A program made the translations under genes and the position numbers. Under the pieces are notes generated by a model. The model had not been told where the DNA came from and made no database searches. It saw nothing but the letters and a program-made list of their open reading frames with translations. This document shows positions 16,918 to 39,269 of a stretch of 64,000 bases of DNA, piece after piece. Source of the DNA: Reichenbachiella faecimaris (GTDB lineage Bacteria; Bacteroidota; Bacteroidia; Cytophagales; Cyclobacteriaceae); contig NZ_FWYF01000001.1 of the NCBI RefSeq assembly GCF_900176375.1, positions 62,001-126,000 on the forward strand, in the 5' to 3' direction. The stretch's first letter is position 1. The number at the start of each line of letters is the position of its first letter.

Positions 16918-17084
16918 ATTAATCTCGACGTCCCTGTAAATTATTTTTCATTAACAGAATAGCAAAAAATAGAATATCATTAACTTGCGGGTCTATTGTA
17001 GTTCAGCTATTTTAGACTCTCCCCGATATCCTATTGATCCATTAGCGAAGGCTTGGGTGTGCATTTTTGGTGAATGAAAAATTA

Positions 17085-18209
17085 ATGGTTAGGACAAAAT
17101 CAAAACACAAAACTTTATTACAACTCTCTAAATCAGACTATCTGCACAATGGTAGATTCAAGGAATTGGTGCATGAAGTTTTGGCTGCACTGAGTTTTGA
17201 GTTGGATGTGGAGCGTGCTGGTTTTTGGATTTTCAGTCAGGAGAATATGCAGATTAAGAATCTGTTTCTTTATGATAAAGAAAACGACACCTTTGTTAAA
17301 GGGAATACCTTTGAACAGGAGGCCTGTCCTAATTTCTATGATACACTGAGAACAAAGCTCATTATCAAAATTGATGATGCTGCCAATACAAAACTTACTG
17401 AAGAGATTAGAAAATCCTACGTTGAGCCCAACGGACTTAAATCAATGTTAGGGATTCAAGTATGGTACAAAGAAGTAATCCTTGGGGTGATATTTGTAGA
17501 GAAACAATCCGAAATACATCGCTGGACTACGCACGACAAAATTTATTTGACCACTGCTGCTTCATACATTTCACAATCCTACAGCTCTCAATTAAGGATT
17601 AAGGAAAAGGGGTTGCGCCAGCTCACAGAAGCCAGTTATCATTCTGTATTTAATGATAGCCCAGTACCAATGTTTATCTACGACCCTGGTACTTATACAA
17701 TATTGGATGCAAACAATGGAGCCATTTCTTTGTATGGTTATGATCTGGATCAATTTAGGGAGTTGACCCTTTTGGATCTAAGAGCCAATGCAGGGGCTAC
17801 CTCTAAGTCTGATGACTTAGATTACGAACAAAAAATCAATGCCAAATGGGAAGCTTCTGAATGGAAGCATAGGAAGAAAAACAACTCAATTTTTATAGTT
17901 CAGATTTCTGGACACTCCACTACGTATAGAGAAAAAAAGGCGAGGATTGCAGTAGCCATAGACATTACCAAGGATAAAAAACAGCGCGAAGAAAAGGAAG
18001 CACTGATTGCCAAATTGGAGGACTATGCATTTTATGCCTCTCATAATATTAGAAGACCCATATCATCTATTTTAGGAATTTTAGATTTGATAAAAATGAC
18101 CTGGGATGATAGAAAAAGCTATGAAGAACTCATGGCAAATCTGCAAATTGCCACTATGGATTTGGATGAGGTAATTAGAGTAATGAATGCTAAATTAGAC
18201 CTTGATTAA
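17085..18209 (+). CDS. GAF-PAS protein ending in a DHp (HisKA-like) domain, no kinase domain
   Basis: A 374-residue soluble protein (start at ATG 17085; TTG 17067 and GTG 17070 lie just upstream). It contains a GAF domain (about 10-180), a PAS domain (about 195-305) and one pair of helices with an H-box, SHNIRRPISSILG, where the phospho-acceptor would be H320. It then stops after about 54 residues, with no N, G1 or G2 boxes of an ATPase. The residue after the histidine is Asn rather than Glu/Asp and the +4 position is Arg rather than Thr/Asn, so canonical kinase and phosphatase chemistry is unlikely. A complete histidine kinase gene begins 33 bases downstream and could be its partner. Two similar proteins occur at 33884-35419 and 37836-39269. 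Confidence 0.85.
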   Translation: MVRTKSKHKTLLQLSKSDYLHNGRFKELVHEVLAALSFELDVERAGFWIFSQENMQIKNLFLYDKENDTFVKGNTFEQEACPNFYDTLRTKLIIKIDDAANTKLTEEIRKSYVEPNGLKSMLGIQVWYKEVILGVIFVEKQSEIHRWTTHDKIYLTTAASYISQSYSSQLRIKEKGLRQLTEASYHSVFNDSPVPMFIYDPGTYTILDANNGAISLYGYDLDQFRELTLLDLRANAGATSKSDDLDYEQKINAKWEASEWKHRKKNNSIFIVQISGHSTTYREKKARIAVAIDITKDKKQREEKEALIAKLEDYAFYASHNIRRPISSILGILDLIKMTWDDRKSYEELMANLQIATMDLDEVIRVMNAKLDLD

Positions 18210-18242
18210 AAACAATATCACAAGAATTGTAAGCTCAAAAGC

Positions 18243-19766
18243 ATGAAGAATAAAGTAAGAGATACCATATTAAAACGAAGCAGTTTTATCATTTTGATGT
18301 TGCTCATTCTAAGTGCCTTTGCTTTGCTTAGAATGCTTGCTACACATCAGGATATTGATGATGTTGCACGAATTGATTTGCCACTGGTTGAAATTCTGAC
18401 CCAAATAGAAACTAACCAATTAGAGCAATCTATTAATTTCGAAAGAGCCATAAGATATGCTGAAGAGTTTGACAAGCACCAGTTTGCCAGAGAAAATTTC
18501 CTGCGGGCGGATAGCACGTTTAGGTATCTGGCTGCGATTGTGGATCAAGATTTATTGGATGCAGATGAGCAGGTTCAACGAGCATTAAGGAATACAACTA
18601 GCAGTAGTCAGCTATCGAAACTCAGGACATTGGAGGTGGCGCTTACCAAGCTGGAATCTGAACACACCAGTTATGAAAATCATGCCATAGAAGTTATGGA
18701 GCTATTGGAAGAAGGTGATGTAGCATCTGCTATGTTGAAGTCTGATAAGGTAGAATCTGAAGAGAATGAATTTAACAGTCAGATTGAAGGTGTTTTGATG
18801 CGGTTAGAAATGTTCACGGAATCTCAAGTAGAATCCGTTGAGCAAGAAGAGGAGCTATCCATGCAGTGGATTGTAGTGTTAACCATCTTCTTCACCACGC
18901 TATCCCTAGTGGCAGTTTATACCTTTAGCTACAAAATATGGGTGCCTCTTGAGCAAATTAGAAAGGGAGCGGAAAGATTGGGTGCAGGTAATTTGGATAC
19001 ACGAATACAATTAAAACCAGAAAGTATTACGGAAGATTTGGTAGATGCCTTTAACAATATGGCAGATCGCTTACAGGATGCACAAGAAGAAATAGAAAGG
19101 TTTACGCATTTTTCTTACAGTACAGCACATGATTTGAAGGCTCCTGTGAATAATATGAAATCACTCATTGAAATGCTGGAGAACACAAAGATGGGTGACA
19201 ATAGCTATGATACCGTGCTGAAAAATGTAAAAAGAAGTGCGGATCAATTATCTATGACAGTAAATGCCTTGAATGATGTGAATCACCTTCGAGCTTCCCT
19301 AAATCAGGATGCCCAGATGGTTTCGTTCGACAAAGTTTTGGCTGAAGTGGCGCAAGGCATGCTTCAGGATATTAAAGATTCCAATGCAACATTTAGAAAG
19401 GACTTTTCAGCCTGCAAGCAAATCAACTACCCTCCATTGCACCTGAAGAGTATCATGCAGAATCTCCTTACAAATGCCGTGAAATATAAGAACCCAGAAA
19501 AGCCATTAGTGATAGAGATTAAAACTCTAGTGAATAAGGGCAGGGTTACGCTTGTAGTTAAAGACACTGGATTAGGTTTTGATGCTGTGAAATACAAGGA
19601 GGAGATCATGAAGCCATTTGTAAGGCTACATTCTCATGTAAATGGAAGTGGGCTAGGTATGTATATTATTAGCACGATTTTGAGTTATCATCATGGTGAA
19701 ATGATTGTAGATAGTCGTCCAAAACAAGGTGCCAAGTTTACTGTCCACCTAAATGAAATGGATTAA
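18243..19766 (+). CDS. Membrane sensor histidine kinase with HAMP domain
   Basis: A complete 507-residue kinase. Membrane helix 1 is at about 14-32, followed by a helical periplasmic sensor (about 35-205, CHASE3/four-helix-bundle-like and rich in Glu), membrane helix 2 (about 208-230), HAMP (about 230-283), a HisKA-like domain with H296 in TAHDLKAPVNN, and HATPase_c with LQNLLTNAVKYKN (N), VKDTGLGFD (G1) and GSGLGMYII (G2). There is no receiver or output domain in the protein and no response regulator gene beside it. It follows the DHp-terminated GAF-PAS gene by 33 bases, so the two are probably co-transcribed. The stop is shared with the convergent gene (TTAA). Confidence 0.92.
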   Translation: MKNKVRDTILKRSSFIILMLLILSAFALLRMLATHQDIDDVARIDLPLVEILTQIETNQLEQSINFERAIRYAEEFDKHQFARENFLRADSTFRYLAAIVDQDLLDADEQVQRALRNTTSSSQLSKLRTLEVALTKLESEHTSYENHAIEVMELLEEGDVASAMLKSDKVESEENEFNSQIEGVLMRLEMFTESQVESVEQEEELSMQWIVVLTIFFTTLSLVAVYTFSYKIWVPLEQIRKGAERLGAGNLDTRIQLKPESITEDLVDAFNNMADRLQDAQEEIERFTHFSYSTAHDLKAPVNNMKSLIEMLENTKMGDNSYDTVLKNVKRSADQLSMTVNALNDVNHLRASLNQDAQMVSFDKVLAEVAQGMLQDIKDSNATFRKDFSACKQINYPPLHLKSIMQNLLTNAVKYKNPEKPLVIEIKTLVNKGRVTLVVKDTGLGFDAVKYKEEIMKPFVRLHSHVNGSGLGMYIISTILSYHHGEMIVDSRPKQGAKFTVHLNEMD

Positions 19767-20338
19767 AAACCCGTACCTTCATTTTTTTCTTTAGGAACTT
19801 CCAAAGCGGTAGGATCCAATTCTTTGAGATGATGAATGTGTTCGTCTACGAGATCGACTCTTTCCGTAACTGCGTCTATATATAGAATGAGCTCATCCTC
19901 AAGAGCAGCAATATCTTTATCAAAGCCGCCACTATCTTTTTTTGCCAAATTCTTTTCAATATGAATTACTTTTTCGCATTCATTTTTGAGAAAGGCCACG
20001 AATTTTTTATTTGTATAGTCAGTCTCTAGGGTCACAATGTCATCCAATGTTTCCTTGGCCGCTGGATCAGCATTGGTGTCATACTTATCAGTAACAGTAA
20101 AATACAGAGTTGTATCATAGTGATGAATTTGACGAAGCAAATCCAATATCTCCTTCCTGTATGTTTTTGAATGACAGTACGTTTTCATTCCTTCATAGCT
20201 CTCCATTTTGAGCGCTTCAATATCCCAAGCTGTTCTTAATTCATCCACAATAAATATGATATCTCTGGGCTTCTTCTGAGCAAGAAGTGGCAATGAAATT
20301 AGAAGAAGAATTACGAGTATGGATGATCGGTTTTTCAT
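19763..20338 (-). CDS. Small exported protein of unknown function
   Basis: A 191-residue protein starting at the ATG at 20338, which gives a signal peptide ending LLAQ at about residue 21. The mature protein is highly charged and probably all helical (for example DIAALEDELILYIDAVTERVD), with two cysteines. I do not recognise the family. It is convergent with the HAMP kinase, sharing four bases of stop codon. A TAttTTTG box is present upstream on the minus strand at 20372-20379. Confidence 0.7.
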   Translation of the reverse strand: MKNRSSILVILLLISLPLLAQKKPRDIIFIVDELRTAWDIEALKMESYEGMKTYCHSKTYRKEILDLLRQIHHYDTTLYFTVTDKYDTNADPAAKETLDDIVTLETDYTNKKFVAFLKNECEKVIHIEKNLAKKDSGGFDKDIAALEDELILYIDAVTERVDLVDEHIHHLKELDPTALEVPKEKNEGTGF

Positions 20339-20371
20339 GAGTTTTTTTGAGTTACACGAATTCAATTTAAT

Positions 20372-20379
20372 CAAAAATA
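20372..20379 (-). promoter_or_regulatory. Candidate -7 box (TAttTTTG) for the small exported protein
   Basis: The minus strand reads TATTTTTG, 33 bases before the ATG at 20338. There is no clear -33 partner. Confidence 0.35.
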
Positions 20380-20528
20380 GAATTTATATACTTAATGCTT
20401 AGGGTTGATTGATATAAAAATCCATAAGTGTCACTTGTATGTCTTTTCATAATCTCTAGTGAAATTGAAGCTGTGCCTGTTTTTAATAAAGATTTCTTAT
20501 TTTGCAGTTGCATCAACCAATTATCACT

Positions 20529-22442
20529 ATGAGAATATTCTGTATTATTATTTTAAGTTGTCTATTTGCGGTTAATCTTCAGGCTCAAAATTTTGTTGAA
20601 GCTTTCAAAGATGGAGGGAAATACTTTAAACATGCGAGATATGACGAAGCCATAGAAAAATTCAACGAGGCGTTGAAATACAATAATAGATCAGATAAGG
20701 CATGGTTTTATCTAGCCATGTCATTCAAGCGTAATGATCAGCCTGAGCAGGCTTCAATTGCATTTGAAAAGCTCAGAGCAGTTAATCCTGATTATAACCC
20801 GGCACAATATTTTGAGGGTGGTGAGGTATTTATCGAGTTGAACAGGTTATCAAGGGCTGAAAGATATTATGAGAAATTTTTGGCAGATTATCCAGATATT
20901 CCGAACAACACCTTAAAAAGGCATGAAGCCAAAAATAGACTGGTTTACGCTCAGAAGAGCAATGAAGTGAGAGAACAGCCAAACGCTACCTCCGAACCTG
21001 AATTGGTATCACAGCTAAATAGTAATTCAAATGACTATGCCCCACAAGTAAACCCTATGGGCACCAGACTCTATTTTACTAGTGTTCGTCAAGGTGGCTT
21101 TGATAACGTGCAAGATAGCTCAAGAGCGAACCATTATGGTGAAGATATATATGTTTCGAATCTCAAGAATGGTGCATGGAGTACACCCATAATGTTGCCC
21201 GAGCCTATCAATTCGATTAATGACGACTTTGGTTCAGCTTTTACAGGTGATGGTCAGACCATGGTATATGTAAGATGTGGAGGTGAAGAAAGTGTAGGTA
21301 ATTGTGACCTCTACATCACCACACTTGACGGCACTAAATGGTCAGAGCCTGTAAATATGGGTAATGTGGTAAATAGTAAAGACTGGGAATCTCAACCCAC
21401 AATAAGTTCTGACGGTACTCGAATCATTTTTACCTCATCACGGGATGGTGGCTATGGTGGCGCGGATTTGTATATGACGGAGCTAAATCATTTGGGAGAT
21501 TGGGGAATCCCTCAAAATCTAGGAAGTACTATTAATACGCCATTAAGCGATAATAGCCCTTTTCTGGCAGCTGATGGTAAAACTTTGTACTATGCCACCA
21601 GTGGACATCCAGGCCATGGTGGTGTTGATATTTTTTATAGTGTATTTGAGAATGGAAAATGGGCTACACCAATCAACTTAGGAGCACCAATCAACTCATC
21701 TGGAGAAGATAAAAATTTCAGTATTTCTGGTTCAGGAGATGCGTACTTCTCATCATCTAGAGTGGGTGATAGCTACAATATATACAAGACCGATCTGCCG
21801 GATTATTTAAAACCAAAACCAACTGCTGTTATTGAGGGTATTGTAGCGAATGCTAATACAGAAGAGCCCTTGGGAGCATTAGTAATGATTGAAGATATTG
21901 ATACAGGGGAGCTTATTGCGATTAACAAGAGTAACTCAGAAAGCGGAGAATACTTAGTGGTGCTACCTGCTGGTAGAAATTACAGTGTTTCTGCGAGTAG
22001 GGATGGTTATTTTTTCTATTCTCAAAGCTTTGACTTGCCAAAAGACACCACTTATCAAGAGATTACAAAAAACATCAACTTAGAGCCGATCGAAAAAGGT
22101 ACTAAAGTGGTGCTGAACAATATTTTCTTTGAATCTGGCAGAGCAGAATTGAAGCCAATCAGTTACGTTGAATTGAATAAGGCAGTAGAATTAATGCAGC
22201 AGAATGGAACCATGGTGATTGAAGTAGGTGGACATACAGATAATCTTGGTTCGGAAGAAGCTAACCAGAGACTCTCACAGGCAAGAGCAGATGCCGTAGT
22301 AAAGTATTTGAAATTAGCTGGAGTAGAAGAAGCTCGCCTTCAAGCCAAGGGATATGGAGAGTCTGTGCCGCTAGAAGATAACAGTACTGCAGAAGGTCGT
22401 AAAGCTAATCGCAGAACAGAGTTCGTAATTGTTGAATTCTAA
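20529..22442 (+). CDS. PorE-like protein: TPR, beta-propeller, CRD and OmpA C-terminal domain
   Basis: A 637-residue exported protein with signal peptide 1-20. The order of domains is TPR (about 25-130), a PD40/WD40-type propeller (about 155-425, repeated DGTRIIFTSSRDGG-like blades), a carboxypeptidase regulatory domain (about 432-515) and OmpA_C peptidoglycan-binding (about 530-637, with GGHTDNLGSEEANQRLSQAR). This is the domain order reported for PorE (PG1058) of the P. gingivalis type IX secretion system, which anchors that machine to peptidoglycan. Bacteroidota often carry several such proteins, so this may be a paralogue rather than the T9SS subunit. The ATG at 20529 gives the signal peptide; an upstream start at 20502 does not. 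No other por genes are adjacent. Confidence 0.87.
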   Translation: MRIFCIIILSCLFAVNLQAQNFVEAFKDGGKYFKHARYDEAIEKFNEALKYNNRSDKAWFYLAMSFKRNDQPEQASIAFEKLRAVNPDYNPAQYFEGGEVFIELNRLSRAERYYEKFLADYPDIPNNTLKRHEAKNRLVYAQKSNEVREQPNATSEPELVSQLNSNSNDYAPQVNPMGTRLYFTSVRQGGFDNVQDSSRANHYGEDIYVSNLKNGAWSTPIMLPEPINSINDDFGSAFTGDGQTMVYVRCGGEESVGNCDLYITTLDGTKWSEPVNMGNVVNSKDWESQPTISSDGTRIIFTSSRDGGYGGADLYMTELNHLGDWGIPQNLGSTINTPLSDNSPFLAADGKTLYYATSGHPGHGGVDIFYSVFENGKWATPINLGAPINSSGEDKNFSISGSGDAYFSSSRVGDSYNIYKTDLPDYLKPKPTAVIEGIVANANTEEPLGALVMIEDIDTGELIAINKSNSESGEYLVVLPAGRNYSVSASRDGYFFYSQSFDLPKDTTYQEITKNINLEPIEKGTKVVLNNIFFESGRAELKPISYVELNKAVELMQQNGTMVIEVGGHTDNLGSEEANQRLSQARADAVVKYLKLAGVEEARLQAKGYGESVPLEDNSTAEGRKANRRTEFVIVEF

Positions 22443-22465
22443 ATCACAAGGGATCTTTGTAAGCC

Positions 22466-22541
22466 AACTAAAAATGTAGGTTCTTTTTTATCAAAGGATT
22501 TTGATTTATCTTTTGTGAACGAGGTACTTACATTTTTAGTT
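22466..22541. repeat. 13-bp perfect inverted repeat between the PorE-like and Reg_prop kinase genes
   Basis: The arms are AACTAAAAATGTA at 22466-22478 and TACATTTTTAGTT at 22529-22541, separated by 50 bases that include a T6 run. It fills the gap between two same-strand genes. It could be a long-loop terminator or a regulatory structure; it is not a typical intrinsic terminator. Confidence 0.45.
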
Positions 22542-22558
22542 AGTTAAAAAAGTCATGC

Positions 22559-25500
22559 ATGAGATTACTCCTTGTTTTTTTAGTCTTTAGTTTTTTTGTA
22601 ACGGTAGTTGCAAAAGGACAAGGCAGTACTTTCGACCCAAAAGAGCCTATACAAAACTTTAGTCTGACACAGTGGACAGCTGAAGACGGACTTTCATCCA
22701 ATAATCTTACAAACGTATTTCAAGACAGTAGAGGCTTGCTATGGGTTACTTCATTCAATGGAGTAATGATCTATGATGGTGAGCGAATCGAAGTGTATGA
22801 CATAAATAATCTTGACCTATTAGAAACAGATGGCTTTTATACTGTTGTTGAAGACGATGATGGTGTGATTTACTTAGGTTCTCAAGGAAGTAGCATAATC
22901 AGCTATTCAAATAGTCGTTTTTCTGAACTTGAGATTTCTTCTGGTTCTTTACCAAAGTCCGTGCCGTCATTGCTAGTAAGCAAATCTGGGACACTTTATG
23001 TGGGTAGCAATAATCAAGGCTTGTTCAAACTAGAGAATGGAATAGCTTCACAAGTAGATGTTCCAATGCTCAATAAAAGTACCATCAGTAATATTAAGGA
23101 AGATGGAGAAGGTAAACTTTGGGTTGCCACTGAAGGCCAAGGTCTGTTTGGCCTTAGAGATGAACAAGTAGAATCTCATTATTCAATAAAAAATGGACTG
23201 CTTGATGATTATGTGGAGAGCTTGATTTGCACAAGTAATGGATATACGATGGTTGCCACTACTCAAGGGTTGCAATTTGTTGATGATCATGGGCAACTCA
23301 ATGAAGTGAAAGGTTTGACCAACGTTTATATTAATTACCTACAGGTAGATGAGTGGAATTCTGTATGGGCAGGAACGGAAAACGGACTAGCCAGGTGGTC
23401 ACCAATGAGTGATAAAGTGGATTGGGTTTATGGGAAGAGTGGTATTGATTTAGTACGAATCAGTTCGATCATAAAGGACGAAGAGAATAGCCTGTGGTTG
23501 ACCTCTAGCAGGACTGGCTTGATGAGATTAAAAGAAAGCCAGCTATCCAACCTGACCCAACCCAATATATCTAGCAATAGAGTCAATATAATTCACGAAT
23601 CTTGGAACGGTAAGTTGTATATAGGAACGGATCAGAACCTCCTTGATATCTATGATGGCTCATCATTTAGCAAGTTGGAAATTAACACTGATCTAGGGGG
23701 TAATGGGGTGCGTGATATATATCATGATCGTGATGGTTCCTTGTGGCTGGCCACTTATGTGGGAATCATACATAAGATGGGAAATAGAGAAACACTTTAT
23801 TCGACCGCGAACGGAATGCCAGCCAATAATTTCCGAACAGTTATCAAAGACAAAAATGGATTTTTTTGGTTTGGATCAAGGTCAGGTGGCTTAGTGAAGT
23901 TTGCAGATGGTCAGATTCTGGAAATCTTAAACAACCAAAATAAACTAGAATCTAATTTCATTTTGAGCGCAACAGAATCAAAGAATGGTGATTTGTATAT
24001 TGGAACTCACAGTGGTGGGATGACCATACTGAAGCCTTCTGGACAGACCATTACATACCATTTAAAAGAAGATGATTCAGGCGTGTTGCTGTTTAACATT
24101 GATTTGATTTCTGACTCAGAAGCATTAATTACTGCGAATATTGGTTTGATACACTTTTATGAAGATAGTTTGAGATTGATTGATTTGGCGATTGATCAAA
24201 GAAGTAAGACATATTTTGATCTTGTAGATGATGAGAAAGAGAATTTTTGGATGACCTCAAACCTTGGAATTTTACAAATCGAAAAGTCTCAATGGAAACA
24301 ATATCGTGATGGAAAAATAGAAGAATTGCCTTATATCCTTTTGGATGAGAATGATGGAATGAATAACAAGGAATGTACGGGAGCAACACGATCGTTATTA
24401 ACCGCTCAAGGGAAGATTATGATTCCTACGCTTGGTGGTGTTTGTGAAGTTAACCCTACCGGACTTAAAGATGGTGAGCGGAAGCCAAGGCTATGTATTA
24501 GAAATGTTTTGGTGGATAGTGAGTCACTACGGATTGACGAAGACCAAACGGTCATAGAGGCAGGTGCACTCAGGTATATTTTTGAGTTTGCTGTACTAAG
24601 TTATGCTGCTCCCGAACGAAATCAATTTAGATACAATCTGGAAGGATTTGAAAAGGAGTGGAGTGACCCTGTTTATGATGGACGGGTCGAATACACTAAT
24701 TTGCCTCCAGGCAAATACACTTTTAAAGTAATAGGGGCAAATGAAAGTAACATTTGGAACACAGAGCCAGTCAGTTTTACTTTTCGGGTGAAGCCATTTT
24801 TTTATCAGACCATCTGGTTTTACTTATTAGTAGTACTTTTTATTATTGGTCTATTTCTGATCATATACAAATGGAGAATTTCATTTATAAATAGGCAAAA
24901 CATAGAACTCAAAAAGGTCAATGCCGAATTGGACAGATTTGTTTATAGTGCATCTCACGAAATCAGGTCTCCTCTTGCTTCCATCTTAGGGTTGATCAAC
25001 TTAGCAAGAATGGGTGAGGTCGAAAAACAACACCAGTATTTTGATCATATCGAAAAGAGCGTCAACAGGTTAGATGATTTTATTCAGGACATCGTAGATT
25101 ATTCTAGGAATGCACGCCTGGGAATTGAAGTTGATGAAGTAGATTTTGAAACCACTATATCGAATATATTGGCTGACATCAGCCATACCAAAAATTTTGA
25201 TATCATAAGATGCAATACAAAATATACATTGGAGGGCAAATTTTATAGCGATTCCAAACGACTCAAAGTGGTTCTAAGCAACATCATAACCAATGCCTTT
25301 AAACATCATACACCAGATAGAGTTGATGACCCGTTTGTTTCCATTGAGGTGTCAAACGTCAAGAAAGACGTGAAAATACAAGTTGTAGATAATGGCCCGG
25401 GAATAGAGAAAAAGGATCAATCAAAGGTTTTTAATATGTTCTACAGAGCAACAACAGCCAGTGAGGGCTCAGGATTGGGACTTTATATTGTAGAGGAGAC

Positions 25501-25603
25501 CTTGGAGAAAATTCATGGCATCATAGAAATTCAATCGAAAAAAGATGAAGGAACCTCTTTTGTGATTACACTAAGAAATCTTGCCGCATTACATAAAAAA
25601 TAG
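22559..25603 (+). CDS. Reg_prop beta-propeller sensor histidine kinase
   Basis: A 1014-residue kinase. After a signal peptide (about 1-20) come Reg_prop repeats forming two seven-bladed propellers (about 40-640; repeated LWVTS, LWVATEGQG and FWFGSRSGG blade ends). A Y_Y_Y domain follows (about 665-740, FRYNLEGFEKEWSD), then a membrane helix (about 755-778), HisKA with H800 in SASHEIRSPLASILG, and HATPase_c with SNIITNAFKHHT, VVDNGPGIE and GSGLGLYIVEE. In Bacteroides such sensors detect glycan fragments and are hybrids with a receiver and an AraC domain. This one stops after the ATPase domain, so its response regulator must be separate. The next gene, a carbohydrate deacetylase, may be functionally linked. 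Confidence 0.92.
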   Translation: MRLLLVFLVFSFFVTVVAKGQGSTFDPKEPIQNFSLTQWTAEDGLSSNNLTNVFQDSRGLLWVTSFNGVMIYDGERIEVYDINNLDLLETDGFYTVVEDDDGVIYLGSQGSSIISYSNSRFSELEISSGSLPKSVPSLLVSKSGTLYVGSNNQGLFKLENGIASQVDVPMLNKSTISNIKEDGEGKLWVATEGQGLFGLRDEQVESHYSIKNGLLDDYVESLICTSNGYTMVATTQGLQFVDDHGQLNEVKGLTNVYINYLQVDEWNSVWAGTENGLARWSPMSDKVDWVYGKSGIDLVRISSIIKDEENSLWLTSSRTGLMRLKESQLSNLTQPNISSNRVNIIHESWNGKLYIGTDQNLLDIYDGSSFSKLEINTDLGGNGVRDIYHDRDGSLWLATYVGIIHKMGNRETLYSTANGMPANNFRTVIKDKNGFFWFGSRSGGLVKFADGQILEILNNQNKLESNFILSATESKNGDLYIGTHSGGMTILKPSGQTITYHLKEDDSGVLLFNIDLISDSEALITANIGLIHFYEDSLRLIDLAIDQRSKTYFDLVDDEKENFWMTSNLGILQIEKSQWKQYRDGKIEELPYILLDENDGMNNKECTGATRSLLTAQGKIMIPTLGGVCEVNPTGLKDGERKPRLCIRNVLVDSESLRIDEDQTVIEAGALRYIFEFAVLSYAAPERNQFRYNLEGFEKEWSDPVYDGRVEYTNLPPGKYTFKVIGANESNIWNTEPVSFTFRVKPFFYQTIWFYLLVVLFIIGLFLIIYKWRISFINRQNIELKKVNAELDRFVYSASHEIRSPLASILGLINLARMGEVEKQHQYFDHIEKSVNRLDDFIQDIVDYSRNARLGIEVDEVDFETTISNILADISHTKNFDIIRCNTKYTLEGKFYSDSKRLKVVLSNIITNAFKHHTPDRVDDPFVSIEVSNVKKDVKIQVVDNGPGIEKKDQSKVFNMFYRATTASEGSGLGLYIVEETLEKIHGIIEIQSKKDEGTSFVITLRNLAALHKK

Positions 25604-25664
25604 AGTAACTTAAAATAGCATTGAGGAGATGCTGTTAATAGAAATGATTTAAAAAACATAGCCC

Positions 25665-32900: not shown

Positions 32901-33098
32901 TTTGAACATAAAACTTCAATTAGCGAAATTACTTCCTTAAACGTTATTGATATTTCAGGGAGAGATTATCCAGTTACTTACAGATTTGAGTCAAACAACT
33001 TGTTCATTCCGATTGCGCATCTTGAGGCAGGTTTTTATATTTTAAAACTTGCAATTAGAGATCAGATTCAATCATTTTCCGTAAGAATTGATCATTAG
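26958..33098 (+). CDS. Giant T9SS-secreted surface protein with LamG-like modules and TSP3 repeats
   Basis: A 2046-residue exported protein. It has a signal peptide (1-20), an N-terminal jellyroll-like domain (about 22-205), then three homologous modules of about 400 residues starting near 215, 644 and 1041. Each begins with a LamG-type stretch (SLWLKAGS, TLWLRPDEG, TLWITSDSG), has a D(V/I)xSYLAIKYGI(S/D)LD element in its middle, and ends with an ERxxRxWxV...GAVTxxFD strand set. A calcium-binding thrombospondin type 3 region follows (about 1439-1674, repeated DTDxDGxPDYxEV). The last 80 residues are a type A T9SS sorting domain (YPNPAKEVINVSF...). It is probably exported by T9SS and anchored at the cell surface as an adhesin or carbohydrate binder. 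No catalytic motif is seen. Confidence 0.92.
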   Translation: MKRIVLCCAFQVFLCSFSTAQTTVYSADFEVDTDGWTTTNWTRDADGALGTSDGDYLHPTSFDDYAAGIDVTATSGVIDLTGFYNLALSVDISYDTDDSGPGLFDNRQDGFTIEYSPDNGGGWFTLGSDQEGINWFNDDDVTAFGLPGWDGQSGGWITSQMPLPDALENNAQVLFRIRFASGTTGLGNNETLGVGAGFDNFTVTSYSSSNGSPGNVPTNLSLWLKAGSRGLTDGSELGAWADESGNENHAYEQTSVDRPTASGQMINNNSVIDFDNSHIEGAAGIYTQEIFIVLDPDFISSSSAETGDILGYQVGGVGSLEFGSSTVQLDDELITHTIDPNPGYRSAYQDLTGEVVLANPMIINDRINATSDGQNIFVNGERVDNIEVDPDGDFVSFSDQPYILGYGFDLADDFQGSIGEVISYTGRLTDSDQQDIFTYLGIKYGITLDTNPGSATINFDYQINGGTLIWPGTTDANYQIYHHDVAGIGKDEAAQELNQSSSQSVNDATIVNIEAADDLDDSEYLVWGNDDNTNSFTTDDVISGITERLERIWKVKETGDVGAVTINFDITNLAVDKDNTTLNLLIAPSSATMPTDLANDAVTALIIGGNVTDQGGHDILTFSNVDFNDGDFFTIGGDVQTIAPGGISSGLTLWLRPDEGLETSGNLVTSWKDVSGSGNDADQGDSDEKPSLVSAEINDNDAIDFSDDFLDGIAGFNTQEYFIILKPDLAIAAGASNGQVLGLQNGTDAGLYLGVGADTLIGHEVDGYRSAYEDGVASITSPVIMLNSRNNDGGTAQELLVDGIQVDNGDDGTFANRSNSYFRLGNNFLGTNGYDGKISEVVSFNSRLSDADHRDVESYLAIKYGISLDISVEGYTANGATIYDNNAYANEIAGIGYNLDHGLIQLTSQSTASGSAVKVSGSSALESGEYLMWGNDGSDKTLTQTTELPSAYSTRLTTEWQVDVTGSPGAVTVKAYLAGVTNYSLLNKAPSLYALLINNTNDFSTVETAIEGSSFSGDTIIFNNVTFSNDDYFTLTLPALPSGAIGISNGTLWITSDSGVTTSGSDVTQWDNQVSAAGLSALEDVDGSPPQIASVNGYNYISFDGSTYLESNGIITGTTIFGTTDNTVMAVVRPNSGTYLAVWETSSTNRAGFGLNGSNASMIFVDASSSEQAIGSTDIVTPSEFQIITYQSTSATSNNIYVNGNSSDGTSNAGTLAGGSAGLGLGATPTGSSGFNGDLAEIGFWSTAISASDRRDVESYYALKYGIDLDISASDYTYNGGTTIYDRTGYNTRVRGIVANNDQGLYLDSTGSINGSDEIEVNNPSSLNNLDGLVIGDDNGSLNYISSGLPVSVTERVTRKWGVYEVNDVGTVSISFDLSSEDNTGYVVADFALILDDNDDFTDGVLDIIAAHSFNSEIVTINYVDFSGATHFGLATGIDITSDTDGDGIPDYFEVAHGSDYNDGDSPVAGGAGSPPTDADDANGPLETTLSLNSGRISSALEQLLIDQGVVAPVSRNTDTDEDGLSDWREVRDGTDPFDADSPTSDGNVDSDGDGLSDGLEAIIAAEGGAVDPDSSTDTDNDGVPDYYEVLNGYDPSDADEPLPGGGALSDVNDATGSAEGSAPVISDALESLLIESGATAPIELSSDTDEDGIPDYIEVIGNTDPFNENSPTVSSDITTIRSLQADYQATNPNCEILDGYQWVDVTDNLGNLVFSINPLGNDLGETCWAVRKLDGESNVRNRMLGAFQEYVLNRNWWISPTTQPAGDYPVYLRFYSLASEPQDLWTKVTNDGHDPDVMADFVQDSINFTKQGGINDLNPFEEGSSTELIHSRGEQFRGSDYQFTLSVNSFSSFAAFFEPGNPNSALPIDLAFFKGLNSDLGIELTWRTLSELNNDYFILERSQHVDSFEEIVRVDGNDDSNEIVDYKWLDKKPLQGKSYYRLTQVDNDGKSNSSDVIMIESGYTRIQVYPNPAKEVINVSFEHKTSISEITSLNVIDISGRDYPVTYRFESNNLFIPIAHLEAGFYILKLAIRDQIQSFSVRIDH

Positions 33099-33140
33099 GT
33101 CGTGTAGAAACTCCAAGGATATTTTTGATAAAACAGAATG

Positions 33141-33174
33141 TTGGTATTTATATTAAATTAAAGAACTACCTTTG
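33141..33174 (+). promoter_or_regulatory. Candidate promoter of the small basic protein / cold-shock operon
   Basis: A TAccTTTG -7 box sits at 33167-33174, with a TTGG-like -33 element at 33141-33144. Transcription from here would give a leader of about 120 bases before the ATG at 33301. Long leaders are usual for cold-shock genes, where the RNA structure controls translation. Confidence 0.45.
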
Positions 33175-33300
33175 TCGCTGGAATCAAGAAGAACCATTCC
33201 GTATTTGTCCTTTCTACATAATTTTTTAGGCTTATCTGTTTAGGTTTTAGTATTTCCATAGTTGGGTAAAGTGCTCAATTTTTAAATCTAAATATACGAT

Positions 33301-33540
33301 ATGTCAAAATCCCAGAATAGCTTCATCAAGAATCAGAAGGCAAAGAAAAAAATGCTGAAGAAGAAGGAAAAAGAGGAGCGACGAAAGGAAAGACAAGAAA
33401 ATAACAACAAAGGAGGAGAGTTATCTGACATGATGGCGTACGTTGATGAATTTGGAAATATTTTATCCGAACCACCAGAGCCAAAAGTCGAAAAAAAGGA
33501 TGAAAAAAAAGATGCTTCCCTTCCGCGACCAAGAACTTAA
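33301..33540 (+). CDS. Small lysine-rich protein preceding a cold-shock gene
   Basis: A 79-residue, strongly basic protein. The first half is almost all Lys, Glu and Arg and probably helical; the second half has a DMMAYVDEFGNILSEPP motif and an acidic/basic tail. From memory, similar small proteins with an (M/L)xAYVDExGNxxxxPP motif occur just before csp genes in many Bacteroidota; they are sometimes annotated as cold-shock proteins although they lack that fold. It lies 31 bases before the cold-shock gene, so the two are co-transcribed. It likely binds RNA or ribosomes through its basic helix, but that is inference. Confidence 0.8.
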   Translation: MSKSQNSFIKNQKAKKKMLKKKEKEERRKERQENNNKGGELSDMMAYVDEFGNILSEPPEPKVEKKDEKKDASLPRPRT

Positions 33541-33571
33541 ACAAAGATTTTTTTTAATAATTTAATAAACA

Positions 33572-33763
33572 ATGCAAGGAACAGTAAAATTTTTCAATGA
33601 CGCCAAAGGATTTGGTTTCATTAAGCCATCAGATGGAGGAGACGACATTTTTGTACACACTTCAGGTCTAGTGGATGAAATCAGAGAAAACGACGAAGTT
33701 GAATTTGACACCGAAAGAGGTAAAAAAGGCATCAACGCAGTAAACGTAAAAGTTCTGGGTTAA
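33572..33763 (+). CDS. Cold-shock domain protein (CspA family)
   Basis: A 63-residue single cold-shock domain. RNP1 is seen as KGFGFIKP and RNP2 as DIFVHTSGL, with the opening [15 protein letters not shown]. It is an RNA/single-stranded DNA chaperone that melts mRNA structure, and is typical in length. It is the second gene of a two-gene operon and is followed by a strong terminator. Confidence 0.96.
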
Positions 33764-33793
33764 TCCTTTCTTTTGATATCATACAAAAAAGTC

Positions 33794-33824
33794 AAGCGAG
33801 TTCATTTGAACTCGCTTTTTTTTT
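33794..33824 (+). terminator. Rho-independent terminator after the cold-shock gene
   Basis: A 10-bp stem (aagcgagttc / gaactcgctt) with a 4-base loop is followed by a run of T, 31 bases after the csp stop. A run of A upstream could let it act on the other strand too, below the convergent gene at 33884. Confidence 0.92.
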
Positions 33825-33883
33825 GCCCTATCTGAAAAGTATTTATCACAGGGGTTACTTCATAGATTTGAATAAGATACTTC

Positions 33884-35419
33884 TTACTTGATTTCAGAAT
33901 TTTTGAAGCGTTTGTTGATAATGTAATCTATATCCTTTCTGGTCAGGTTGCTTCCATCTTCCAGTGTTGAACTTATTTTCCTTACAATTTCATCCAGATT
34001 TTTGGTTGATTCATGTAGGGCTTTCAAAAGCTCTTCATCTTGTATAGATGTATTGTGTATTTGAAGCAAGTTTGATATTCCCAGAATGCTGGATAGAGGA
34101 GCTCTCAGCATGTGTGAGTTGACAAAAGCATATTCCTTAAGTTGATTGTTTTGTATGAGAAGCTTCTGGGTTCTTTTGTCTACTGCGGCTTCAAGTGAGC
34201 CATTAGATTCAATCAATTTTTCATTGAGCTGATGTAATTCTTTGTTCATTGATTCAATCATGGTACTGCTCAGTGAAAGTTCTTTGTTTTGACTTTTCAG
34301 TGTGTTTAGCAGCTCTTTTATTTTTTTGTTTTTATAATGAGAAGCAATAAAATCTGCTAAAGATTGAGTGATCAGGGCGTGTTCTGCTTCCCATTTTCTT
34401 GTGTTCCTGATATGCTCACAACAGACCACGCCTATGGCCTTCTGATCTAGCAAAATAGGGCAGTCGAGCATGGATTTAATACCTAGAGGTGCCAGATAAT
34501 TGTCTTTGAACTCTGAAGTGTCAGGGTTAGAAATGGCATTATGTGCCATAATGTAGGGTTTGGTTTCTACGGCTTCGAAATAGGATGGATAATCAACCTG
34601 ACTGATGACAATCTCTTTTGTATTCTCTGAGCCATTTTCAACTAAATACTTCAATTCCAATATGTTTCGATCCGTATTGAACAGCCAAATACTAACGCGA
34701 TCTACTTCCAATGAATCCTGAGCCAAGGCACAAACATTCTCAAAAAGATTTTTAGTAGTCTTAAATGCTTCAGGATTCCTTGTCAATTCAATCAGTGCAG
34801 CATTGAATGCAGTGAGTTGCAGGCTTTTTTGCTCTACGCTATTTTTAAGATTAGTAAGCTCCTGATTGTTTTCGACTGTTTTGCTATAAGCTTCGCCCAG
34901 AAGATTATACAATAAATAGGTAGACGCTAGAATGGCACCAAGAAAAACCACTCCTGACCAATAAGATGCACTGCTTGAAACTAATAAATTGTAAGTACTT
35001 CCTACAGATTCGAGCACAATCAAAAAATTGAAAAGATAGGAGACCAAAATAATAATAAACCAAATTCTAGAGGCTTGAAGTCCCTGAATTAATACTGCCA
35101 AAATGGGTATAAATGGAAACCAATAAATGGTAGTATTGAATGTCTGGGGTTGAGCGAGGAATAGAAATTCAATTAATATAAATATGAGTAGAGGCATAAG
35201 GAACCTTATCCACGTAGCATGAGCAAATCTTATACTGAGCAAGGTGACAGCAAGGCTGGCCACGAAATAAGAGGTATATACTATAATCGACCCAGACCTA
35301 AGATCAACTGTAAGGTCAACAATGACCATTATACCCGACACCATAAGATTTACAATAAGGACAGAGAAGAATACCTTATTGGATTGGATCTTATAGTCAG
35401 TCATGTTGAGCCAACGCAT
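33884..35419 (-). CDS. Membrane GAF protein ending in a DHp (HisKA-like) domain, no kinase domain
   Basis: A 511-residue protein (a second ATG at 35404 is equally possible). It has five or six membrane helices (about 15-185), a GAF domain (about 205-375), a coiled coil (about 380-428) and a terminal DHp helix pair with H-box SHMLRAPLSSILG, phospho-acceptor H436. Only 75 residues follow, with none of the N, G1 or G2 boxes of an ATPase. The residue after His is Met, not Glu/Asp, and +4 is Ala. It therefore looks like a phosphotransfer or pseudo-kinase sensor rather than an autokinase. The short extra tail (DYIINKRFKNSEIK) is unique among the three paralogues. It stands alone, with no regulator beside it. 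Confidence 0.85.
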   Translation of the reverse strand: MRWLNMTDYKIQSNKVFFSVLIVNLMVSGIMVIVDLTVDLRSGSIIVYTSYFVASLAVTLLSIRFAHATWIRFLMPLLIFILIEFLFLAQPQTFNTTIYWFPFIPILAVLIQGLQASRIWFIIILVSYLFNFLIVLESVGSTYNLLVSSSASYWSGVVFLGAILASTYLLYNLLGEAYSKTVENNQELTNLKNSVEQKSLQLTAFNAALIELTRNPEAFKTTKNLFENVCALAQDSLEVDRVSIWLFNTDRNILELKYLVENGSENTKEIVISQVDYPSYFEAVETKPYIMAHNAISNPDTSEFKDNYLAPLGIKSMLDCPILLDQKAIGVVCCEHIRNTRKWEAEHALITQSLADFIASHYKNKKIKELLNTLKSQNKELSLSSTMIESMNKELHQLNEKLIESNGSLEAAVDKRTQKLLIQNNQLKEYAFVNSHMLRAPLSSILGISNLLQIHNTSIQDEELLKALHESTKNLDEIVRKISSTLEDGSNLTRKDIDYIINKRFKNSEIK

Positions 35420-35524
35420 GAATTGTCTTTGGTTAAGTCAAGGAAATTTGTCACATAGCTAGTACTTAATCTAGCGAAAAAATATCGTGTTTACACGTTT
35501 TTGACCTATTCAATTCTTAGGCTT

Positions 35525-36332
35525 CTATGGAAGACTAGCTTTGAAATCATCATAACTCATTCCACTTTCTTTAATTTTGTCAGTGCTACAATTGATGTCA
35601 TTAGCTTTTGCATTGATATCTGCAACTCGCGAAGTTGGAGATGGATGTGTACTTAGAAATTCTGGCCCTCCGGCTTGTCCTTCGGCAGTGAGCTTTTCAA
35701 AAAAGGTAGCTGCACCATTACATGCATACTCTGTATCTGATAAGTAAATAACTGAGTGTTCATCTGATTCGGCTTCGTCATCTCTGCTAAATTTAAGACC
35801 AAAGAAACCAGTAGCTAGTTGCGCCAGTTGAGAATTGCTCGCTTCACCTAGAATAATCTGACTAAGCAATTGGAGTCCAACTTGCTGCTTCATTTGATCA
35901 CTTGAGTGGCGCTCTGAAGCATGAGCAATTTCATGTCCCATAACACCCGCTAAATCATCTGCAGTATCCAAGTACTTAATCAAACCTGTATAAACATAAA
36001 TAAAGCCTCCAGGCGTTGCAAAAGCATTCAAAACATCCGCGTCAATAATTTTCACCTCATTATAATGAAATAGGTCTTTATATTTAACATCATCACTGGC
36101 AGGCAACTATGGCGGCTGTCATATTCTGGATATACTCGTATGCTTCAGGGTAATTTGCTTCTGGAAGAATGGGGTAGTTGGTTGGATCCGCCTCAATCTG
36201 AGCAACTACTGATTTACCTAATTCTACGTCATTGGCAGGTGTGAGCCCAAGAAGCTGATCTGTGGCTTCACTACACGAGTTTAAGAAAATAGCAGCTATC
36301 AGTAGGTAAAGAATATGTTTACTTTCTCTCAT
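35525..36332 (-). pseudogene. M48 family metallopeptidase lipoprotein, frameshifted
   Basis: Two overlapping frames together make one M48 (Ste24/BepA/LoiP-like) lipoprotein. The first, from the ATG at 36332, has a lipobox (LNSC) and ends early at 36093 after NMTAAIVACQ. The second continues from about 36106 with SDDVKYKDLF and holds the zinc site HEIAH plus a downstream glutamate (DEAESDEHS). The break is explained by a tandem duplication of 4 bases, ggcaggca at 36098-36105. Removing one copy joins the frames as IVASDDVKYK, exactly the expected family sequence. Active, the enzyme would degrade or refold envelope proteins. As written it yields a 79-residue fragment, plus a C-terminal fragment only if re-initiated at TTG 36106. 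Confidence 0.85.
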
Positions 36333-36449
36333 TGAACAAATTTTGGTTACATAATAATCAAACCACAAATGGGCAACAACAAAGTTACACAAAAGTGAAA
36401 ATGAATGGGAGAAGTAGTAATGAGACTTTTTCGTCCCTTGGATTATATC

Positions 36450-36457
36450 TAGTTTTG
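36450..36457 (+). promoter_or_regulatory. Candidate -7 box (TAgtTTTG) for the DEAD-box helicase
   Basis: TAGTTTTG matches TAnnTTTG and lies 16 bases before the ATG at 36474, giving a leader of about ten bases. The -33 position holds TTTT rather than TTTG. Confidence 0.4.
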
Positions 36458-36473
36458 CCGAAAGATTTCATGC

Positions 36474-37823
36474 ATGGATACATTTGATTCCCTACAGTTA
36501 AAAAACCCTCTAATTAATGTTATTACTGATTTGGGCTTTGAGAAACCTACACCTATTCAAGCTCAGGCTTATCCTGTCATATTATCAGGTAAAGACTTAG
36601 TAGGAATCTCACAAACTGGAACTGGAAAGACCTTCGCTTACGTACTACCCCTGCTGCAAGAGCTTAAATTTTCAAAGCAAAGCACTCCCAGAATTTTGAT
36701 TCTTGTCCCTACTAGAGAGCTTGTGGTGCAGGTAGTAGAACAAATTGAAATATTAGCAAAATATATCAATGTGAGAGTACTTGGTGTCTATGGGGAATCT
36801 AATATCAAAGTACAAAAGGAGGCTTTACTTGAAGGTCAGGATATCATTGTGGCTACACCAGGCCGCCTTTATGATTTGATCATAAATAGAGCACTACAAC
36901 CAAGGGATATCAACAAATTAGTGATCGATGAGGTGGACGTCATGCTAGACTTAGGATTCAGAGTTCAGCTAACCAATCTTTTTGAATTACTTCCGACGCG
37001 TAGACAAAACATCATGTTCTCAGCTACAATGACTGAGGAAGTTGACGCCTTGATTGAAGACTTTTTCACTACACCTCAGAAAATAGCTGTTGCAGTCAGT
37101 GGAACACCATTAGACAACATTGCTCAATCCAGTTATGCAGCTAAGAATTTTCATACCAAAACCAGGTTGCTCAATCATTTGTTGGAGAACAAAATTGAAT
37201 TCCACAAAGTTTTGGTTTTCATTTCAAATAAGAAATTGGCGGATCGATTGTTTGATGCTGTGGAAGAATCTTATGGCTCACAGGTTTGTATCATTCATTC
37301 AAATAAATCACAGAACTACCGTTTGAGATCTGTAGAAGAATTTGATGAAGGCAGTAAGAGAATATTGATTGCAACAGACGTGATAGCCCGTGGACTTGAT
37401 CTAGAAAGGGTGTCTCACGTCATTAACTTTGATGTACCCAATTATGCTGAGAATTATATGCATAGAATTGGTCGGACGGGTAGGGCAGAGGAGCTTGGCA
37501 AATCAATTTTGTTTTATACAGAAAAAGAAGAGGTACTCAAAGAAACGATTGAGACTCTGATGGATTACCAAATCCCAAATATGGATTTTCCGGAAGCAGT
37601 TGAAGTCACTAATGAATTGATACCTGAAGAAAGACCTAAAGTGGCAGAGAGCAATTACAACAGAAACACTAAGCCACGTGTAGCAACCTCGGAAGACGAA
37701 GAAAAAAAGGAGAAAAACAAAAAGGTAAACTTAGGGGGTTCATACAAGCGCAAACTGGCATCAAAGCACAAAAAGCCAAAGACCAGAGGAGATAAAAATC
37801 AAAATAAAAAGAAGAGGAGATAA
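36474..37823 (+). CDS. DEAD-box family RNA helicase with DEVD motif II
   Basis: A 449-residue helicase of the RhlE/CshA type. The Q motif (GFEKPTPIQ), motif I SQTGTGKT (K52), Ia PTRELV, Ib TPGR, III SAT, IV-V (VLVFISN, TDVIARGLD) and VI HRIGRTGR are all present. Motif II reads DEVD (152-155) instead of DEAD. The Asp-Glu pair needed for magnesium and catalysis is intact, so activity is likely. The C-terminal 70 residues are lysine-rich and disordered, a typical RNA-tethering tail. It should unwind short RNA duplexes in ribosome assembly or mRNA turnover. Confidence 0.93.
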   Translation: MDTFDSLQLKNPLINVITDLGFEKPTPIQAQAYPVILSGKDLVGISQTGTGKTFAYVLPLLQELKFSKQSTPRILILVPTRELVVQVVEQIEILAKYINVRVLGVYGESNIKVQKEALLEGQDIIVATPGRLYDLIINRALQPRDINKLVIDEVDVMLDLGFRVQLTNLFELLPTRRQNIMFSATMTEEVDALIEDFFTTPQKIAVAVSGTPLDNIAQSSYAAKNFHTKTRLLNHLLENKIEFHKVLVFISNKKLADRLFDAVEESYGSQVCIIHSNKSQNYRLRSVEEFDEGSKRILIATDVIARGLDLERVSHVINFDVPNYAENYMHRIGRTGRAEELGKSILFYTEKEEVLKETIETLMDYQIPNMDFPEAVEVTNELIPEERPKVAESNYNRNTKPRVATSEDEEKKEKNKKVNLGGSYKRKLASKHKKPKTRGDKNQNKKKRR

Positions 37824-37835
37824 TCTTAAAGGGTA

Positions 37836-39269
37836 TCAACTGTCATGATTTGTAGACCTGTCTTTAGTTAGCTTGCTTTCAAAGGTACTCTTGGTTAGCA
37901 CTTGATTCATCATTCTGATCACATCATCGATCTCAATGGATGTATCATTGATATGTTTGAGCATTTCGGGCAGCTCATCTTGTTTGAAAGTATTTTTATC
38001 CTGCATCAGACTCGTTAATCCAAGCAATCGTGAGAGGGGGCCACGCAATTCATGCGAAGTCTGAAAAGCATATTCTTCCAGGTTTTGAAGTAATAATTTA
38101 CGTTCCTGATCCTGTCTGCTTTTTTCTGTTATATCCAATTTGTTGAGCCACATCCAGCTCAACTTACCATCATCAAGTTGCGAGGTGACATGGCTGATAA
38201 ACCAGCAGTCTGTGTCGTGTATAGATTCGGCAAGCACTTTGCCATTGAGGTGATAACTGTTGTCAACAATGGCATGGAGCAGATTTACAGCCGATTCCTC
38301 ATGATCCATGACAAATGACAGACTCTTGCCAATAAGCTCGTTGGGATTTTTGTGGAGGTAGAGTTCCGCAAATACATGATTGCATTCCACCAATTTCAGA
38401 TGATTGAGCAGATAATCAATCTGTTCTTCTTTGGGTAAATCAATGCGCATGGGCGCTTCCAAATCAAGTCTGGCAATGCCCTCAAAACTATTAGTAAATA
38501 GTTTGCGGTACTTTTCTTCACTTTCCTGTAGTCGTTCTGTAATTCCGATTAACTGACTTTGCTTTTGTCTAAGGTCAGTTGTTCTTTCTTTGACCACTTC
38601 TTCAAGATTCGTAGTCAGTTGGTCTAGTTTGATGTTGTTATTTAGCAGACGGACATTCGACTTTTCATATATATATAACAAATAGCCAATGACTATATTG
38701 AATATGGCCCAGTAATAGATGGAGGTAAAGTAGGTGTAGTCATTGTCCAGAAATTTTTCTGTCTCTATTCTGTTATTATCAAAATACAACAGATACGATT
38801 GTTGATAAAAAATGCTTATCAGACTAAAGAGCAGCAGAAAACCAAAGGCAAAAGGTGATTTTCTGAACGAGAAAAGTATTTGACAAACCACAGCGAAACC
38901 TATAATACTCAGATCGAAGTGAAAATAGTAATCGACTTCTGTGCCTTGTATGACTGGATCCAGAACAAGCCAAAAGGCAATCCATGACAATAAATAGAGC
39001 CATCTGCTTATGGTGAAAAGTCCTTGACGGTTGATGAAATAGCACAGCACAGAGGCCATAGCAAACATTAACCTCGTAAATTGATCAAAGTTGAATTCGG
39101 ACCAGGGTTTTATATATTCCTTGTAGTCCAACAGATAGGAAATCAGGATGATCACTGGCACAACCAGAAAGAGCACATTAGCTAAAATGACTCGCTCTTT
39201 TGAAGTATGGCTTTGATTGGAAGCAGAACCCGCCAGAAAAAAGGACTCTATAGACTGTAGATTAATCAA
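37836..39269 (-). CDS. Membrane PAS protein ending in a DHp (HisKA-like) domain, no kinase domain
   Basis: A 477-residue protein. Six or so membrane helices (about 25-200) are followed by a coiled coil (about 205-245), a PAS domain (about 250-365) and a final DHp helix pair with H-box SHELRGPLSRLLG, phospho-acceptor H406. The chain ends 71 residues later, with no ATP-binding boxes. Here the residue after His is Glu, but +4 is Gly. It is the third DHp-terminated protein in this window. The helix after the H-box ends IDDVIRMMNQVL, very like LDEVIRVMNAKL in the protein at 17085-18209. No partner kinase or regulator is adjacent. Confidence 0.85.
   Translation of the reverse strand: MINLQSIESFFLAGSASNQSHTSKERVILANVLFLVVPVIILISYLLDYKEYIKPWSEFNFDQFTRLMFAMASVLCYFINRQGLFTISRWLYLLSWIAFWLVLDPVIQGTEVDYYFHFDLSIIGFAVVCQILFSFRKSPFAFGFLLLFSLISIFYQQSYLLYFDNNRIETEKFLDNDYTYFTSIYYWAIFNIVIGYLLYIYEKSNVRLLNNNIKLDQLTTNLEEVVKERTTDLRQKQSQLIGITERLQESEEKYRKLFTNSFEGIARLDLEAPMRIDLPKEEQIDYLLNHLKLVECNHVFAELYLHKNPNELIGKSLSFVMDHEESAVNLLHAIVDNSYHLNGKVLAESIHDTDCWFISHVTSQLDDGKLSWMWLNKLDITEKSRQDQERKLLLQNLEEYAFQTSHELRGPLSRLLGLTSLMQDKNTFKQDELPEMLKHINDTSIEIDDVIRMMNQVLTKSTFESKLTKDRSTNHDS

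Follow-up and report, generated by a model that had tools for sequence, protein, structure and literature searches.

Can a sensor protein that carries the phosphoacceptor module of a histidine kinase, and stops before any ATP-binding domain, take part in phosphate signalling? The question is raised by a 64,000-nucleotide (nt) stretch of Reichenbachiella faecimaris DNA (contig NZ_FWYF01000001.1, positions 62,001 to 126,000 of the forward strand; hereafter the window), in which an earlier inspection of the sequence (the original prediction) had singled out three proteins, here p1, p2 and p3, that end directly behind the two helices of a dimerization and histidine phosphotransfer (DHp) module. 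We found that they belong to a larger family of Bacteroidota proteins forming one lineage, and from sequence comparison we consider it moderately likely that this family, the members in the window included, consists of sensor-gated histidine phosphotransferases like Spo0B or PhyT. The features concerned are, in positions of the window:

17085..18209, + strand: p1, GAF-PAS-DHp; 374 amino acids, stop 54 residues past H320
18000..18206, + strand: terminal DHp module of p1; His codon 18042-18044
18243..19766, + strand: complete kinase, HAMP-HisKA-HATPase_c; begins 33 nt after p1 with its own start
33884..35419, − strand: p2, hydrophobic N-terminus (by eye), GAF, DHp; 511 amino acids, stop 75 residues past H436
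33887..34168, − strand: terminal DHp module and tail of p2; His codon 34112-34114
37836..39269, − strand: p3, hydrophobic N-terminus (by eye), weak PAS, DHp; 477 amino acids, stop 71 residues past H406
37839..38102, − strand: terminal DHp module and tail of p3; His codon 38052-38054

All three open reading frames (ORFs) were as predicted, including the three histidines, the tails of 54–75 residues, and Asn, Met and Glu at the position after the histidine (+1) and Arg, Ala and Gly at +4 in p1, p2 and p3, respectively. p1 was read from an internal ATG of an ORF that is slightly longer (17067-18209); the start of p3, a TTG, is uncertain. Pfam assigned GAF and PAS to p1, GAF to p2 and a weak PAS to p3, and matched HisKA partially in each (profile positions 8–53, 10–57 and 10–57 of 66), with 18.1, 23.6 and 26.3 bits, under the curated cut-off of 26.9. 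The predicted lack of a HATPase domain in or in frame after the proteins also held: Pfam found no HATPase_c in p1, p2 or p3, none was seen by eye in the three-frame translation of the 1.5 kb downstream of p2 or p3, and the ORF after p1 is the separate complete kinase. Membership of p1–p3 in the Hpt family was rejected, as PF01627 was absent among their Pfam matches at E up to 1.

Conservation of the histidine in orthologues had been set in advance as a test, and it was kept in 8/8 same-genus orthologues (2/2 for p1, 4/4 for p2 and 2/2 for p3). These orthologues also stop within a few residues of the same point, with tails of 54 residues for p1, 75–78 for p2 and 68–69 for p3, and in 8/8 orthologue comparisons the DHp was better conserved than the input part. 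A conserved tail behind the DHp, with the pattern L.DG..LTR.DI, forms the C-terminus of p2 (33887-33970) and of other p2-type proteins (loci L050, L051, L056, L058, L074 and L075), and recurs in two further families of the order.

The original prediction was right that such proteins exist in this genome, but its count of three was too small. A profile of the three window modules gave 51 matches in the R. faecimaris genome, of which 30 were fetched and read (the other 21 scored lower), and at least 16 proteins end 51–81 residues past the histidine. By eye, the inputs of the other 13 comprise TPR, propeller with Y_Y_Y, PAS and membrane domains. In total, the genome contains 79 HisKA, 93 receiver (REC) and 4 Hpt matches. 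One propeller-type DHp module (C7:773433-773663, L041) is a degenerate copy beside the intact gene C7:773783-776998. In a tandem array (C7:636876-640474, L037), DHp-terminal membrane paralogues with and, judged by eye, without the histidine alternate strictly, and a similar mix was seen in two relatives (L151 3967-5757; L156 2976-7577). One of the His-less copies shows 75% identity across two genomes and is therefore conserved, not decayed.

Are the members related by descent, or are they separate truncations? The three proteins had been taken for independent copies, a view that did not survive a tree of the modules. This tree rests on 69 columns, modules with <50 aligned positions and near-copies having been dropped and the degenerate copy C7:773433-773663 included; 39 terminal and 39 full-kinase modules fell on opposite sides of one branch (support 91/94; 92% of bootstrap trees), with 1 change between terminal and full compared with a mean of 26 for shuffled labels. 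Because the two sets split on one branch, the terminal modules are, as judged from this tree, one radiated lineage and not three truncations. Because members were found with profiles built from members, relatives that are very divergent or without the histidine are under-represented. In the tree, the full kinases that lie nearest to the terminal modules include L008, L019, L021, L025 and L255 (own genome). Consistent with a common lineage, a profile made only from 79 foreign loci in named genomes (described below) recovered all 16 own members at 30.8–66.8 bits, and among its best 13 matches to the fetched own-genome loci 12 were terminal. The exception is the full kinase C7:792681-794294 (L008, L043): by this profile its DHp ranks with those of the kinase-less proteins, and it may resemble the ancestor or be a cognate partner.

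To see what the module has kept, we compared 85 nonredundant terminal modules (profile-found, without the 79 named loci and with the degenerate copy C7:773433-773663) with 60 full kinases, dropping near-copies and modules with <45 aligned positions. Near invariance was confined to a few positions (His 85/85, Arg+3 84/85, Pro+5 84/85, and a helix-2 Asp at +41 in 83/85), while +1, +2 and +4 vary; the box reads SHxxRxP or AHxxRxP, and 51–83 residues follow the histidine. Asp or Glu at +1 was present in 19/85 terminal modules versus 47/60 full kinases, or in 27/85 versus 60/60 when Asn is counted as well, and Thr or Asn at +4 in 0/85 versus 14/60. In PMC3510030, kinase activity was found to need the +1 acid and phosphatase activity was not, whereas for Thr or Asn at +4 it was the other way round (statements cited here by PMC number refer to the excerpts available of those papers). 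The module thus appears to have retained the residue that carries phosphate and largely shed the two that serve enzymatic activity, the second of which is missing in most sampled full kinases too. Compared with what defines a HisKA kinase, the histidine of the H-box is there (16/16 own members, 85/85 overall), no HATPase_c follows the DHp, and the +1 acid is lacking in most members, p3 with its Glu being an exception. The one member of the 85 with Gln+3 and Glu+4 is, we infer, L124 1-4716, whose SHDLQEP box and following HATPase ORF make it look like a full kinase split by a stop.

The search of related genomes for proteins with a C-terminal DHp, suggested in the original prediction, showed the architecture to be recurrent. 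A profile with 16 rows matched 27/29 genomes of the own genus, family and order at E 1e-6 and 37/296 genomes of the phylum at 1e-13, and a profile of modules from outside the genus matched 49/296 phylum genomes (26/140 genera) at 1e-9; all three tallies include the own genome and some full kinases. Of 30 loci fetched from the last search, 27 end after the DHp and 3 are full kinases; among loci L076-L104, 27/29 end after the DHp, L100 and L103 being full kinases. In named genomes, 511 related stretches were detected, and 79 named loci were taken from the best 80 of these, ranked by similarity to a REC-DHp module. They hold Dyadobacter, Flavobacterium, Pedobacter, Mucilaginibacter, Algoriphagus, Belliella, Arenibacter, Balneolia and others, together with the source of the query itself (L165) and a metagenome assembly labelled Thalassovita (L193), an alphaproteobacterial name. 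At 77 of the 79 the protein ends after the DHp and at 2 it continues into a REC (DHp-REC), and a HATPase was found at 0/79; REC and HATPase calls in the loci were made with small home-made profiles (6 REC and 7 HATPase seeds). Val occupies +1 in 58/71 of the named-locus modules, which is not a population frequency, as the search patterns favour His followed by Val at +1. Across 80 terminal proteins, own and foreign, the Pfam matches comprised PAS_9 (56), Response_reg (22), GAF (8), TPR_12 (7), MASE11 (4) and Reg_prop (4), and HATPase_c was not among the 25 commonest of 45 families.

Which proteins might such modules work with? In other Bacteroidota, REC-DHp proteins of ∼330–350 residues, with a PAS in between (by eye), occur in operons with a full kinase and REC-only genes on either side. 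We found the order kinase, REC gene, REC-DHp gene, REC gene, complete or partial, at seven loci: L116, L117 and L144 have all parts, and so does L124, but with its kinase split by a stop, whereas L115 is without the second REC-only gene, L125 is without the first and the kinase of L139 lies on the opposite strand. An N-terminal REC was present in 42 of the 79 named loci, and a REC-only gene lay directly upstream in 34 and directly downstream in 17, counts that are not population frequencies because the ranking favours the REC-DHp type. In 40 profile-found loci outside the genus, a same-strand adjacent single-domain REC accompanied 9/38 terminal genes compared with 5/326 other genes (p = 8e-7); the 76 ORFs treated as terminal in the survey of neighbours within 1.5 kb include the degenerate copy C7:773433-773663 and L124 1-4716, the latter apparently counted among the 38 as well. 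In three proteins (L163, L196 and L216), the DHp is fused to a C-terminal REC without a HATPase, and this REC is closest to the downstream-gene type (100–128 bits versus ≤47 for the other two REC types). In consensus lines of the N-terminal, upstream and downstream RECs alike, the acidic pair, the phospho-Asp, the Thr/Ser and the Lys are each conserved in 60% or more of the rows. Of the RECs fetched from the own genome, seven are of the downstream type; six (C7:1721503, C4:253766, C4:286775, C4:134034, C4:120057 and C3:370586) lie beside full kinases and one, C7:1735191-1735598, beside none. At L105 1559-3076 (G005), in a relative, a kinase and a downstream-type single-domain REC stand upstream of the p3 orthologue, separated from it by a single gene on the opposite strand; in the window, p3 has no such pair next to it.

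A structural model is in line with a free-standing DHp. AlphaFold folded the p1 module (17937-18206, 35 related rows, single chain) into a two-helix hairpin (helices 2-54 and 59-88; mean predicted local distance difference test (pLDDT) score 92) that ends with the protein; a model of whole p1 from a single sequence had a pLDDT of 33 and was useless. In a fold search with the hairpin, kinase DHps, among them 5c93 and HK853, ranked high in the PDB and took the first and second places (E 0.17 and 0.19), and 4qpk, titled 'bacterial phosphotransferase' and which we take to be a ChpT, was tenth (E 0.64, probability 0.92). All matches fell short of E 0.001, and helical hairpins of unrelated proteins were matched in number too, so the search is at most consistent with a DHp fold. 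A sequence profile of the 16 modules had solved kinases among its 32 PDB matches at E up to 1.

Three options had been offered for the function of p1–p3: phosphotransfer as in Spo0B, dimerization with a full kinase, and dominant inhibition. We favour the first: the histidine is invariant in the members found, the kinase acid has mostly gone, and the module occurs in fusions and operons with receivers. In the scheme that we infer, a variable input (GAF, PAS, TPR, propeller or membrane domains) would control the C-terminal DHp hairpin; a complete kinase would charge a REC, the DHp histidine would take the phosphoryl group from that REC, and it would pass it to another, usually single-domain, REC, or drain one. 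The sensor part would then set the efficiency of this middle, phosphotransfer step. Window members, which have no adjacent single-domain receiver gene, would work in the same way with receivers encoded elsewhere.

Several observations weigh against this proposal. Within 1.5 kb of the 16 own members, no gene for a single-domain receiver was found (0/16), and what comes closest is a divergent LytTR-type regulator beside one TPR member; p2 and p3 have neither a kinase nor a receiver gene within that distance, and p1 adjoins a full kinase, not a receiver. Of the 16 own members, 4 (including p3) have kept Glu at +1 and 3 (including p1) Asn. The score of p1 with the foreign profile, 37.9 bits, is lower than those of the three full kinases L008, L018 and L020, and six full kinases outscore the lowest own member, so that there is no clean separation. 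An adjacent same-strand REC is no commoner beside terminal genes than beside full kinases (5/29; p = 0.56), and the linkage therefore speaks for REC partners, not for a direction of flow. The missing Thr or Asn at +4 is a weak point, as 46/60 full kinases are without it too, and the 85/85 conservation of the histidine is partly a product of how members were found. The His-less paralogues among His-bearing ones mean that part of the wider family works without the histidine. Lastly, Spo0B and ChpT were both absent from the 32 matches that the module profile gave in the PDB at E up to 1.

Some of these points could also be read in favour of a partner acting in trans, in which the protein would form a mixed dimer with a complete kinase that phosphorylates the partner histidine or is tuned by it. 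We regard this as rather unlikely for the family, yet the earlier suggestion of a pseudo-kinase dimerizing with a full kinase stays viable, for p1 above all, because p1 with its Asn+1 and p3 with its Glu+1 could still be phosphorylated in trans. The pairing of p1 with its downstream kinase is kept in 2/2 same-genus relatives examined. Outside the genus, 6/38 terminal genes have a same-strand full-kinase neighbour compared with 8/326 other genes, one of the six, L124, probably being a split kinase itself. The DHp of the full kinase C7:792681-794294 is close to that of the kinase-less family, the side-by-side paralogues with and without the histidine suggest mixed dimers, and the module profile matches RetS in the PDB (E 0.007), a protein that works through pairing with GacS, a kinase. 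On the other hand, the +1 acid needed for autophosphorylation (PMC3510030) is lost in most members, no kinase gene lies within 1.5 kb of 13/16 own members, and REC fusions at either end would go unexplained. Less probable still is a receiver phosphatase or phosphate sink, with the DHp docking on a receiver and removing its phosphate. The REC linkage of the family would fit, and such an activity has been proposed for archaeal 'HisKA, no HATPase' proteins (PMC5847659), but the Thr or Asn at +4 required for HisKA phosphatases (PMC3510030) is absent in 85/85 modules, though also in the full kinases counted above. A sink that works by reverse transfer to the histidine shades into the phosphotransferase proposal.

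A role as non-phosphorylated adaptors, whose DHp only dimerizes or docks and thereby sequesters receivers or kinases, appears improbable to us. Conserved His-less paralogues do exist, but near invariance of His, Arg+3 and Pro+5 alongside variable +1, +2 and +4 speaks against such a role; likewise, dominant inhibition, the third of the original options, by itself leaves the conserved histidine unexplained. That the proteins are products of random truncation, pseudogenes or assembly errors we consider very improbable, as the original prediction had argued. The degenerate copy C7:773433-773663 shows that decay occurs, but orthologues end within a few residues of each other, their DHp is better conserved than their input part, and the 511 related stretches in named genomes and the single lineage likewise speak against such an origin. 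Frameshifted or truncated kinases were rejected on the downstream frames, the single lineage and the orthologue conservation.

Returning to the phosphotransferase proposal, how does it compare with known systems? Spo0B (Bacillus) and ChpT (Caulobacter) are dimeric phosphotransferases in which a kinase-derived DHp histidine relays phosphate between receivers, as proposed here. Both retain a C-terminal domain that is a degenerate version of an ATP-binding one, and neither has a sensor, whereas in our family nothing follows the DHp and sensors precede it. The resemblance of ChpT to a kinase has been noted (PMC3433190). PhyT of Sphingomonas is a sensor-bearing phosphotransferase with a degenerate ATPase domain (PMC5898713): PhyT/PhyP and the proteins described here would have in common a sensor part, descent from a kinase and the acceptance of phosphate from a single-domain receiver, but the former are alphaproteobacterial and have an HRxxN box in addition to the degenerated ATPase domain, in place of SHxxRxP or AHxxRxP with nothing after the DHp. 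Full Bacteroidota kinases with SHN-type boxes (L019, C4:284366-286699; L025; L255) are among the nearest DHp relatives and have a downstream-type single-domain REC beside them; unlike the family, they carry a HATPase domain.

The claim of an undescribed scheme stands only in part, as the architecture itself is in print. Archaeal 'HisKA, no HATPase' proteins have PAS or GAF sensors and a C-terminal HisKA-like part with a conserved histidine, some with a REC (REC-PAS/GAF-HisKA, such as AF_1472), and were termed nonenzymatic HK-like, with partners unknown and a possible phosphatase activity (PMC5847659). An Archaeoglobus family without HATPase has been mentioned (PMC1183210), and in P2CS a HisKA protein that has neither HATPase nor receiver is grouped with the phosphotransfer proteins (PMC2716373). 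Compared with the archaeal class by architecture only, as far as the excerpt of PMC5847659 describes it, what differs here is that the members form one bacterial lineage, that loss of the kinase acid has been counted and that operons and fusions indicate receiver partners. A search of titles and abstract starts in the open-access literature found no account of a Bacteroidota family of this kind or of its receiver partners, which is weak evidence of absence.

If the proposal is correct, a recurrent class of Bacteroidota proteins that resemble sensor kinases would not be kinases at all, and input at the phosphotransfer step would be far commoner than the single printed case that we found, PhyT, suggests. 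The partners indicated would be a recognizable subfamily of single-domain receivers, and the archaeal 'nonenzymatic HK-like' class would become a question with concrete partner genes. Two-component wiring in Bacteroidota would be misread without this class. More tentatively, Bacteroidota may run many-to-few phosphorelays, in which many kinase-less sensors with different inputs gate the flow between shared single-domain receivers, the middle step rather than the kinase is a main sensing point, and in one array His-bearing and His-less sensors pair into dimers with one phosphate-carrying side.

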